Origin: Bacteroidales bacterium
Lineage (GTDB): Bacteria > Bacteroidota > Bacteroidia > Bacteroidales > UBA10428
NCBI GenBank assembly: GCA_016938235.1
Contig: JAFGVA010000198.1
Span: forward strand, 1 to 64,000
Direction of reading: 5' to 3'
Length of the DNA stretch: 64,000 nt
The notes under the pieces are model-generated. The model was not told the origin of the DNA, made no database searches, and worked only from the letters and a program-made list of their open reading frames with translations. Shown in pieces: positions 13,551 to 18,309 of this stretch. The position numbers were made by a program, and so were the translations under genes. Numbering within the stretch: the first letter of the stretch is position 1; every line of letters starts with the position of its first letter.

Positions 13551-14726
13551 ATGAAAAACAAACTATTTTTAAATCTTGCTGCAATACTATTTCTTAGCAG
13601 CTATTCTTTGTTAAACGCTCAAACAACTAGTGTAGAAGACTTTATACCCTCGTCGGTAAACCAAGCCGGCAAGCAATATCCACAGGTTAATTCTGAAGGT
13701 AAAGTACGTGTACAAATATCAGCACCCGATGCTAAATATGTTCAGCTCGATATTGGTGCCGTTAAATACGATCTTACGAAAGACGAGAATGGGGTTTGGA
13801 CAGGTGAATCTGCCCCCCAGGATGAAGGGTTTCACTATTACCAGTTAAATATCGATGGTGCTTCAGTTCCTGATCCCAACAGTCTTTATTTTTATGGTGC
13901 AAGCCGTTGGGGAAGTGGTATAGAAATTCCTGCTAAAGACCAGGATTTTTATGCTTTAAAAGAAGTTCCGCATGGTCAGGTTCGCGAGCAAATTTATTTC
14001 TCCGAAACAAGTAAAGATATGCGCCGTTGTTTTATTTATACACCTCCCGGATACGATAATGATCTAACTAAACGATACCCTGTTTTATACCTTCAGCATG
14101 GTGGTGGTGAAGATGAAACAGGATGGTCAAACCAGGGCAGAGTAAACCTCATTATGGATAACCTTATTGCCGAAGGAAAAGCCAGACCTTTCATTATTGT
14201 AATGGATAATGGCACATGGCGCATGCCAAGAAGAGATGAAAATGCTCCCAGAGACACAACACAACCACAAACCTGGCCCCCAAAAAACTGGGCCGATGGT
14301 TTCATGAATACATTGCTGAATGATATTATTCCTATGGTTGATAAAGAATACCGAACAATAGCAAACCAGGAATACCGTGCTATGGCTGGTCTCTCTATGG
14401 GAGGTATGCAAACCCGTGTTATTACACTGGCAAATCCTGATGTGTTTTCTTATGTAGGAATGTTTAGTGGTGGAAGCATAAGCCCCAAAGACATTCAGAA
14501 CTCACCTGCATTTAAGGAGAAGGTAAAACTGGTATTCATTAGTTACGGTGGTCGCGAACTGGAGAATCCCAGAAGAGGCCCATGGGGAGATCCAAAAGAA
14601 AATACCAAAGCTTTACAAGATGCAGGCATGAACACTCATTTCTATGTTTCTCCACTTACTGCTCACGAGTGGCAGAGTTGGAGAAGAGGTTTTTATCAGT
14701 TTGCCCCACTTTTATTTAATGATTAA
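13551..14726 (+). CDS. CBM48-CE1 esterase, paralogue 1 of the tandem array
   Basis: A 391-residue secreted esterase with a signal peptide to residue 24 (LLNAQ), a CBM48-like domain (~30-135) and a CE1 alpha/beta-hydrolase domain (~145-391). It shows the YTPPGYD strand, the LQHGGGEDE oxyanion segment, Ser282 in AGLSMGG and His372 in TAHEW. Where the double esterase has an Asp in GGKED, this protein reads GGRELE, so Glu336 is the only nearby acid; this is a possible change in the catalytic triad. A proline-rich insert (~225-245) distinguishes it from its neighbours. Likely substrates are feruloyl or acetyl groups on xylan. It is 12 bp from the GH3 gene and 12 bp from the next paralogue, in an evident operon. 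Confidence 0.88.
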   Translation: MKNKLFLNLAAILFLSSYSLLNAQTTSVEDFIPSSVNQAGKQYPQVNSEGKVRVQISAPDAKYVQLDIGAVKYDLTKDENGVWTGESAPQDEGFHYYQLNIDGASVPDPNSLYFYGASRWGSGIEIPAKDQDFYALKEVPHGQVREQIYFSETSKDMRRCFIYTPPGYDNDLTKRYPVLYLQHGGGEDETGWSNQGRVNLIMDNLIAEGKARPFIIVMDNGTWRMPRRDENAPRDTTQPQTWPPKNWADGFMNTLLNDIIPMVDKEYRTIANQEYRAMAGLSMGGMQTRVITLANPDVFSYVGMFSGGSISPKDIQNSPAFKEKVKLVFISYGGRELENPRRGPWGDPKENTKALQDAGMNTHFYVSPLTAHEWQSWRRGFYQFAPLLFND

Positions 14727-14738
14727 TACTACATAACC

Positions 14739-15845
14739 ATGAAAAAATATTCTATTTTAATTTTAGTATTTATTTCTCTTACAATAAATTTTTCTATTGC
14801 ACAGGAGGAACAGCCAGCTATACTTGATGATTTCAAGCCATCGGCAATAAACCAACCCGGTAAGGAATTTCCACAGGTAAATTCCGAAGGCCGGGTACGT
14901 GCTCAGATTTCAGCTCCGGAAGCAACTTCTGTTAAGCTGGATATTGGCGGAGTAAAGTACGATTTAGTAAAAGATGAAGCGGGTATCTGGACAGGTGAAT
15001 CTGCCCCCCAGGATGTTGGCTTTCATTACTACCAGTTAAATATTGATGGTGCCTCGGTGCCCGATCCCGGTGCGTTGTTGTATTTTGGTGCTTGCCGTTG
15101 GGGTAGTGGCATTGAAATTCCTTCTGACGATCAGGATATATTTGCGGTGAAAGATGTTCCACATGGCCATGTACACGAAATTCTTTTCCCTTCAGAAAGT
15201 ACCCAAAAATCACGCAGAGCTTTTGTGTATACACCTCCGGGCTATGAAACAGAAACCTCCAAACAATACCCGGTATTATACTTGCAACATGGGTATTGTG
15301 AAAACGAAACATCATGGTTCAGGCAGGGACATGCAAATCTAATCATGGATAATCTTATTGCCGAAGGAAAGGCTAAACCTTTCATAATAGTGATGACCTA
15401 TGGCATGACCAATGAAATTGAATTCGGTGGTTTACGTAATTTTGATATAACACCCTTTCAAACCGTTTTGGCTGATGAGCTGATTCCTTATGTTGATTCT
15501 CATTTTCGCACCCTGGCCAATCAGGAAAACAGGGCTATGGCCGGGCTCTCCATGGGTGGTTTCGAAACCCGGCTCATTACTTTAAACAAACCCGATTTGT
15601 TTTCGCACTATGGTTTGTTCAGCGGAGGGATGTACAAGCCAGAAGAAATTGCCGATCACGATCAACTGAAGCTCATTTTCATCAGTTGTGGAAGCAAGGA
15701 AAGACCCGATGGCGTTAAAAATGCAGTTAATGAATTACAGAACCAAGGTTTCAATGCAGTTTCTTACATCTCGGAAGGTACGGCTCACGAATTCCATACC
15801 TGGCGTCGAAGCTTGCATCAATTTGCTCAACTGTTGTTTAAGTAA
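14739..15845 (+). CDS. CBM48-CE1 esterase, paralogue 2
   Basis: A 368-residue secreted esterase with signal peptide (to ~22, FSIAQ), CBM48 domain (~28-135) and CE1 domain (~145-368). Ser271 sits in AGLSMGG and His350 in GTAHEF. The acid-loop reads CGSKERPD, giving Glu321 where classical members have Asp one residue later. Its CBM48 domain is almost the same as that of paralogues 1 and 3 (shared [23 protein letters not shown] and RWGSGIEIP blocks), while the catalytic domain differs more. The substrate loop after the FIIVM strand is shorter than in paralogue 1. It probably acts on a different ester or xylan context from its siblings (inference). It starts 12 bp after paralogue 1. Confidence 0.88.
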
Positions 15846-17042: not shown

Positions 17043-17115
17043 CTACTTTGAATAAGCATTTACGATAAGCTGATGCATAATACTCCAAAACATAAATGAA
17101 TAAAACCAAAATTAA

Positions 17116-18309
17116 ATGAAGTTAAAGGCTCCAATAATAAAATTTACTGTTCTGTTATTTTTTATATCGGAACTTGGACAGGCGCAGCAGGCCAATGTAA
17201 ATCTCGATTTTAATCCACAAAAGGATACTGAAGGACTTATACCCTTTAGTGCTCCCTTGAACTCTCCTGAAGTGCATGACGACCATACTGTTACTTTTAG
17301 AATAAAGGCCCCAAAGGCAGAGGAAGTCAAACTAACCGGGGTCGCCATTCTTACCGCATTAGGAAAAGGTCGTGAACAAGTACCTTTTACCAGGGGTGAC
17401 GATGGTATCTGGACTTTAACAGTTGGTCCACTTGAACCCGATATGTACGCCTATCATTTTAATGTAGATGGAGTGCAAATAACAGACCCAAGCAACACGA
17501 TTGCTGCTTTTACTGCCATGCCTCCATACAGTCAATTGGTTGTTCATGGCAATGGACCAGCATACTACGATGCCCAAGATGTTCCACATGGGCAAGTAAC
17601 CAGACACATCTATCATTCCGATGTAACAAATGGTGAACGAGAGCTCTATGTTTATACCCCTCCGGGATATAATCCTGATAAATCTTATCCTGTTCTTTAC
17701 CTTGTGGGTGGTAGTGGAGAATTACCCTCCAATTGGATCTACGATGGTCGTGTGAACTTTATTATGGATAACCTGCTGGCTGAAGAAAAAGCTGAGCCAA
17801 TGCTGATTGTTATACCAAACAATCAGGTTATTCACCGTAATCATCCAAAACATGCTGAACTCACCTTCGATATTTTTGAAAAAGAACTTAGAAATCATGT
17901 TATTCCTTTGGTTGAAAGTAATTATACTGTCCGGATGAATCCAAAAGGAAGAGCCCTTTCAGGCTTGTCGATGGGAGGAAGACATACCATGTTTATCGGG
18001 TTCAGATCTCTTGATCTGTTTGCTTCATTTGGTGTATTAAGTGCGGGTGATTTAAACGCAGAAACATCTTTCAGCAATTTCCTGAATGATCCCGATGTAA
18101 ATAATAAACTTGAATATTTATTTGTTGGTCAGGGCACGATGGAGGCTGAAGGTTTTATGGGAACGCGTTGTATTGCATTGCATGAAGCACTCACCAAACA
18201 TAACGTTGAACACGAATACTATGTTGGTGGACATGGAGGCCACGATTGGGCCACATGGCGTCATCTATTGTATTATAGTTTTTTACCTAACTTATGGAGA
18301 TCCAACTAA
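17116..18309 (+). CDS. CBM48-CE1-like esterase, divergent paralogue 4
   Basis: A 397-residue secreted esterase with a signal peptide to ~23 (GQAQ), an N-terminal CBM48-like sandwich (~50-155) that is clearly diverged from paralogues 1-3, and a CE1 domain (~160-397). Ser285 lies in SGLSMGG and His376 in GHGGHDW. The oxyanion region reads LVGGSGE rather than the LQHG of its siblings, and the acid-loop GQGTMEAE carries Glu343 instead of Asp. This resembles enzymes annotated as enterochelin-esterase-like or acetyl-xylan esterases from xylan loci. It lies 73 bp after paralogue 3 and 19 bp before the lipoprotein carboxylesterase. Its different pocket suggests a different acyl group or sugar position. 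Confidence 0.85.
   Translation: MKLKAPIIKFTVLLFFISELGQAQQANVNLDFNPQKDTEGLIPFSAPLNSPEVHDDHTVTFRIKAPKAEEVKLTGVAILTALGKGREQVPFTRGDDGIWTLTVGPLEPDMYAYHFNVDGVQITDPSNTIAAFTAMPPYSQLVVHGNGPAYYDAQDVPHGQVTRHIYHSDVTNGERELYVYTPPGYNPDKSYPVLYLVGGSGELPSNWIYDGRVNFIMDNLLAEEKAEPMLIVIPNNQVIHRNHPKHAELTFDIFEKELRNHVIPLVESNYTVRMNPKGRALSGLSMGGRHTMFIGFRSLDLFASFGVLSAGDLNAETSFSNFLNDPDVNNKLEYLFVGQGTMEAEGFMGTRCIALHEALTKHNVEHEYYVGGHGGHDWATWRHLLYYSFLPNLWRSN

Follow-up and report, generated by a model that had tools for sequence, protein, structure and literature searches.

The window, as we call the whole 64,000-nucleotide stretch of Bacteroidales DNA analysed here, contains four tandem CE1 esterase genes that were described, in an original prediction made from the letters alone, as having lost the catalytic Asp and carrying a Glu one residue earlier. 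The question is which residue would serve as the triad acid in these four proteins: the Glu itself or, as the same prediction allowed, an acid from another loop.

Six CE1 domains in one polysaccharide locus

The gene content of the window is that of a Bacteroidota-type polysaccharide utilisation locus, with GH43, GH3, GH97, GH31, GH2, GH127, GH10, GH39 and GH9 genes, a TonB-dependent receptor (SusC-like) and a SusD gene. Positions 8968-18309 hold six CE1 esterase domains, and the genes follow in the order double esterase, GH3 gene, single-esterase paralogues 1-4:

8968-10887, + strand: double esterase, CE1-CBM48-CE1; motif CGDQD from 9643 (N-terminal domain) and GGKED from 10729 (C-terminal domain)
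13551-14726, + strand: paralogue 1, CBM48-CE1 esterase, 391 aa; Ser282, Glu336 (GAA, 14556-14558), His372
14739-15845, + strand: paralogue 2, CBM48-CE1 esterase, 368 aa; Ser271, Glu321 (GAA, 15699-15701), His350
15873-17042, + strand: paralogue 3, CBM48-CE1 esterase, 389 aa; Ser272, Glu338 (GAA, 16884-16886), His370
17116-18309, + strand: paralogue 4, CBM48-CE1 esterase, apparently of a conserved subgroup of its own, 397 aa; Ser285, Glu343 (GAG, 18142-18144), His376; Gly198-Gly199 replaces His-Gly

All four paralogues are open reading frames, and all four match the Pfam Esterase family (PF00756) with E-values of 5.3e-20 or lower (72.7-82.3 bits against a curated cut-off of 22), so their likeness in motif reflects common descent and chance is not the question. 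We found the GLSMG nucleophile motif and a catalytic-His motif (AHE/GHD) in every paralogue; the Ser and His residues are retained as predicted, and the numbering given for the four Glu residues was right. The CBM48 is fused N-terminally: solved CBM48-CE1 chains align with nearly the whole of paralogues 1-3, and paralogue 4 has a Pfam CBM_48 match and a predicted model that aligns with 7b6b over residues 43-395. At E 0.001, Pfam CBM_48 gave no match in paralogues 1-3 or in the double esterase. We rejected the idea that the four genes are recent tandem copies drifting together, since they fall in four separate tree groups and are 31-54% identical to one another. At the downstream end, a carboxylesterase-family (PF00135) reading frame is listed at 18110-19891 from a TTG inside paralogue 4; it more likely begins with the ATG at 18329, past the paralogue 4 stop.

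The register of the acid motif and the solved homologues

The motifs quoted for the array (GGRELE, CGSKER, GTKEPE and GTMEAE) are real and were re-read from the translations of paralogues 1-4, but the one-residue displacement read from them is a register error. By both a six-domain alignment and a profile alignment, the acid column has the motif G-x-x-(D/E) and each array Glu occupies that column itself: the domains read G-D-Q-D (double esterase, N-terminal), G-G-K-E (double esterase, C-terminal), G-G-R-E, G-S-K-E, G-T-K-E and G-T-M-E. The final D of GGKED, which lies one residue past the acid column, had been taken as the reference, and this produced the false shift. The accompanying statement that the double esterase has Asp holds for its N-terminal domain, where the Asp of GDQD is in the acid column, and fails for its C-terminal domain, where Glu is in the column and the Asp comes next. 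The array Glu residues thus share a column with the Asp of the N-terminal domain and of the XynZ feruloyl esterase domain (1jjf), and E336 is among the invariant columns when the C-terminal domain is aligned with paralogues 1-4.

Among solved chains, the acid column contains Glu in 6rzo (GSRE), 6ne9 (GTAE), 7b5v (GTAE) and 6mot (GSEE) and Asp in 1jjf (GTND) and 6rzn (GKDD). Identities of 59-69% connect Glu-bearing solved homologues to paralogues 1-3. The CBM48-CE1 feruloyl esterase wtsFae1A (6rzo) is 66% identical to paralogue 2 and 59% identical to paralogue 1, although it reads GSREN where these read GSKER and GGREL, and the acetyl-xylan esterase Bi1039-CE1 (BACINT_01039, 6ne9) is 69% identical to paralogue 3, with GTAEP in place of GTKEP. 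The feruloyl esterase Bi1033-CE1 (BACINT_01033, 6mot/6mou), with Glu336 in the acid column, is 43-47% identical to paralogues 1-3; it differs in having a second Glu (E335) directly before the acid. DmCE1B (C-terminal half 7b5v/7b6b) has the same CE1-CBM48-CE1 layout as the double esterase, whose C-terminal half is 47% identical to DmCE1B_ct 7b5v, CBM48 part included. On the Asp side, the XynZ domain has the same fold and triad columns and is 49% identical to the N-terminal domain of the double esterase, and wtsFae1B (6rzn/8bbp) has the CBM48-CE1 layout; both differ from the array in the Asp of their acid column.

Published triads name the same Glu in three of these enzymes (the sources that follow are cited in extract). 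DmCE1B_ct has the triad Ser542-His638-Glu606 in its crystal structure, annotated with reference to other members of CE1 (PMC8040265), and the triads of Bi1039-CE1 and Bi1033-CE1 are Ser266-His364-Glu332 and Ser273-His365-Glu336 (PMC7815789). The Bi1039 triad was tested by mutation, and E332A abolished activity on pNP-acetate (PMC7815789). More generally, the CE1 triad is given as Ser-His-Asp/Glu (PMC12247016). We measured Ser-acid spacings of 64, 66 and 63 residues and acid-His spacings of 32, 32 and 29 for 7b5v, 6ne9 and 6mot, respectively, equal to the published triad spacings. A literature search on Ser-His-Glu with feruloyl esterase or CE1 returned mostly CE15 and nothing for CE1, and the word "triad" is absent from PMC7110780. 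From these alignments and homologues, Glu336, Glu321, Glu338 and Glu343 are very likely the triad acids of paralogues 1-4; of the two options originally offered, the first is well supported by the homologues and published triads, while the second finds little support in the column counts given below.

Paralogues 1, 3 and 4 have another Glu two residues past the acid column (GGRELE, GTKEPE, GTMEAE), which could in principle be their acid. Beyond its presence in those three sequences, this reading runs against the comparative data: paralogue 2 has no such residue, the column is acidic in just 24 of the 129 Glu-type rows of the alignment described below, and it is the first Glu that the extracts of PMC8040265 and PMC7815789 name in the triads. 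We consider it the least probable reading of the array. A further reason for caution about the first Glu comes from Bi1033, where E336A leaves about 30% activity and the authors allow that the adjoining E335 may be the right acid (PMC7815789), so that, on the extract cited, it is not established that every member depends on the acid column. No acidic residue stands directly beside the Glu in paralogues 1-4 (R-E-L, K-E-R, K-E-P, M-E-A), which makes them cleaner than Bi1033 for gauging the contribution of the acid.

The acid column among relatives and on the tree

We then drew domains for comparison from the genome of the window, from its family and from other genomes, the last represented by the 80 loci nearest to a Glu-type query among at least 579 relatives. 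A profile made from the six domains of the window itself was used for the alignment and gave 215 domain matches. Of these, we discarded 24 in which the Ser, acid or His column was missing and 4 that a longer row already contained; the 187 that remain include further esterases encoded in the window's genome, and one locus may contribute several domains. The acid column contains Glu in 125 of these domains, Asp in 60, Ala in one and Thr in one remote row, counts that lean to Glu with the Glu-type query and are not a family-wide frequency. When the six solved chains are added, 191 of 193 rows have D or E here, as compared to 148 of 193 with an acidic residue in the runner-up column between Ser and His. 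We quote this count over all 193 rows because any group of rows defined by its acid residue is uniform in that column by construction. The distance from acid to His is 29-30 residues in 62 of 62 Asp-type rows and 28-43 residues in the 129 Glu-type rows.

These counts bear on the proposal that another loop supplies the acid and that the Glu of GxxE has a structural role. The proposal draws on the residual activity of Bi1033 E336A (PMC7815789, in extract), on one double-esterase C-terminal domain (L071) that reads GGKAD, and on a column before the Ser with an acidic residue in 187 of 193 rows. However, that last column is common to Asp-type and Glu-type rows and is too alike in the two to replace a lost acid, and none of the published triads in the extracts cited names it. 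An acidic residue immediately follows the catalytic His in 120 of 129 Glu-type rows and in 27 of 62 Asp-type rows, but its counterpart in DmCE1B, Glu639, pairs with a His of the CBM48 (PMC8040265, in extract). The best alternative column between Ser and His falls well below the GxxE column, and the GxxE residue is the one named in the triads of PMC8040265 and PMC7815789. An acid from another loop is thus very improbable, and we retain the GxxE Glu as the very likely triad acid, with the residual activity of Bi1033 E336A, the Ala of L071, the single Thr row and the second Glu of paralogues 1, 3 and 4 among the points that count against it.

Two observations from the same alignment concern individual positions. 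The residue after the catalytic His is itself a Glu in paralogue 1 (Glu373). The L071 domain has Ala in the acid column and Asp directly after it, and by analogy with the E335 proposed in Bi1033, the later Asp of GGKED-type domains might act as the acid or as a back-up.

To place the Asp/Glu difference on a tree, we left the acid column out of the alignments, and in a second tree we also omitted the long-branch rows L003, L118 and L116; the search was short, and 63 of 187 forks are open. Asp and Glu require two changes on the tree as compared to about 51-53 in shuffles, and the same two when the long-branch rows are included. Holding all Glu rows (and one GGKAD row) on one side improves the likelihood by 25.8 log units over the free tree, and such a tree is not rejected (p-AU 0.734). 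Paralogue 2 groups with wtsFae1A, paralogue 3 with Bi1039 and the double-esterase N-terminal domain with XynZ; the C-terminal domain lies in the GGKED group, and paralogue 1 lies in a 12-row GSREL/GGREL group that contains none of the six solved chains. Paralogue 4 stands apart, at an open fork of the free quick tree. Although it was set apart there, a separate origin of its Glu is not needed, given that the tree with Glu rows together is the better one. The Asp/Glu difference looks like an old marker of CE1 branches and not a recent change in the array, and the apparent oddity is ordinary, already explained by a published feature of this CE1 branch.

Paralogue 4 and the putative function of the array

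The original prediction also noted that paralogue 4 lacks HG, which we take to be an oxyanion motif. This is correct: paralogue 4 reads LYLVGGSG where paralogues 1-3 read LYLQHG, yet the difference turns out to be a conserved trait of a subgroup. Among 185 domains with Asp or Glu in the acid column, this region reads HG in 158, GG in 6 and SG in 6, and is cut before the motif in 15; HG marks the majority of these domains without defining the family. The SG rows (L064, L066, L071, L073, L075 and L078) are six Asp-type CE1 domains that carry SG for HG (LISGTT) together with a GFSRG nucleophile motif.

The GG of paralogue 4 (17707-17712, Gly198-Gly199) is common to the eight orthologues identified, the window's included (L007, L038, L098-L101, L127 and L128), and these eight keep the Ser, Glu and His motifs (GLSMG, GxxE and GHD/AHD). 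A near-full-length match to paralogue 4 at 54% identity or more is present in 5 of 23 genomes of the family sample, the window's included, and one further genome has a 27-residue fragment at 78%. When we searched the class sample (E 1e-60), 3 of 395 genomes, again including the window's, had a near-full-length match at 61% or more, and three others had matches at 37-40%. No solved structure among the chains listed exceeds about 35% identity to paralogue 4 over its full length.

We predicted the structure of paralogue 4 with 59 of the 142 rows of adequate length as input, and obtained a model with a mean pLDDT of 88.5 and a pTM of 0.85. Glu343 is placed in a short turn (341-344) right after the strand 334-339, and His376 just before the helix 378-392. 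Ranked by Z, the closest fold is that of DmCE1B_ct (7b6b_A, Z 39.1, rmsd 2.3 Å over 334 residues, 33% identity; 7b5v_A, Z 39.0), tied with 6ne9_B (Z 38.4). By Foldseek E-value, the first row is the Asp-type wtsFae1B (6rzn_B), so the fold match is silent on Asp versus Glu. DmCE1B, at about 34% identity to paralogue 4, differs in keeping HG; its likely oxyanion donors are the main-chain amides of Gly450, two residues past the His of HG, and Met543 (PMC8040265, in extract). By spacing, Gly450 corresponds to Ser200 in paralogue 4 and to Ser183 in Bi1039.

These data bear on whether the array members, chiefly paralogue 4, are decaying and catalytically impaired copies, as the missing HG and the 31-34% identity of paralogue 4 to the other five domains might suggest. 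All four frames are open, however, and GG, GLSMG, GxxE and GHD/AHD are kept in the eight distinct orthologues, window included. Furthermore, if the donors are main-chain amides, as the DmCE1B extract has it, losing that His side chain need not cost the protein a donor; since such a donor is independent of that side chain, paralogue 4 likely retains activity despite its GG. We therefore regard decay as improbable, and paralogue 4 looks like a member of a conserved subgroup.

Taken together, we are highly confident that paralogues 1-4 are CBM48-CE1 xylan esterases, belonging to a degradation locus of arabinoxylan type, with a Ser-His-Glu triad that is an old trait of their branch. By the usual alpha/beta-hydrolase mechanism, the Ser would attack the ester with His as the base, and the Glu, placed where a strand of the central sheet has ended, would orient and charge the His, replacing the Asp of XynZ-type enzymes. 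The analysis shows where these residues lie in the sequence, their homology and conservation, and the predicted fold of paralogue 4; catalytic role, substrates and cellular location in the four proteins are inferred from these. The most likely activities are feruloyl esterase for paralogue 2, as in wtsFae1A, and acetyl-xylan esterase for paralogue 3, as in Bi1039-CE1. All four proteins are probably secreted. A minor lead is left in the subgroup around paralogue 4: it is possible, though doubtful, that this is a separate CBM48-CE1 subgroup with a Glu acid and a GG(S) loop for HG, present in at least eight genomes, with no listed solved chain above about 35% full-length identity, and that it may act on an ester outside the range of the other enzymes of the locus. 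For the array as a whole, a false lead is removed, and the Glu is a documented catalytic-triad acid of this CE1 branch.
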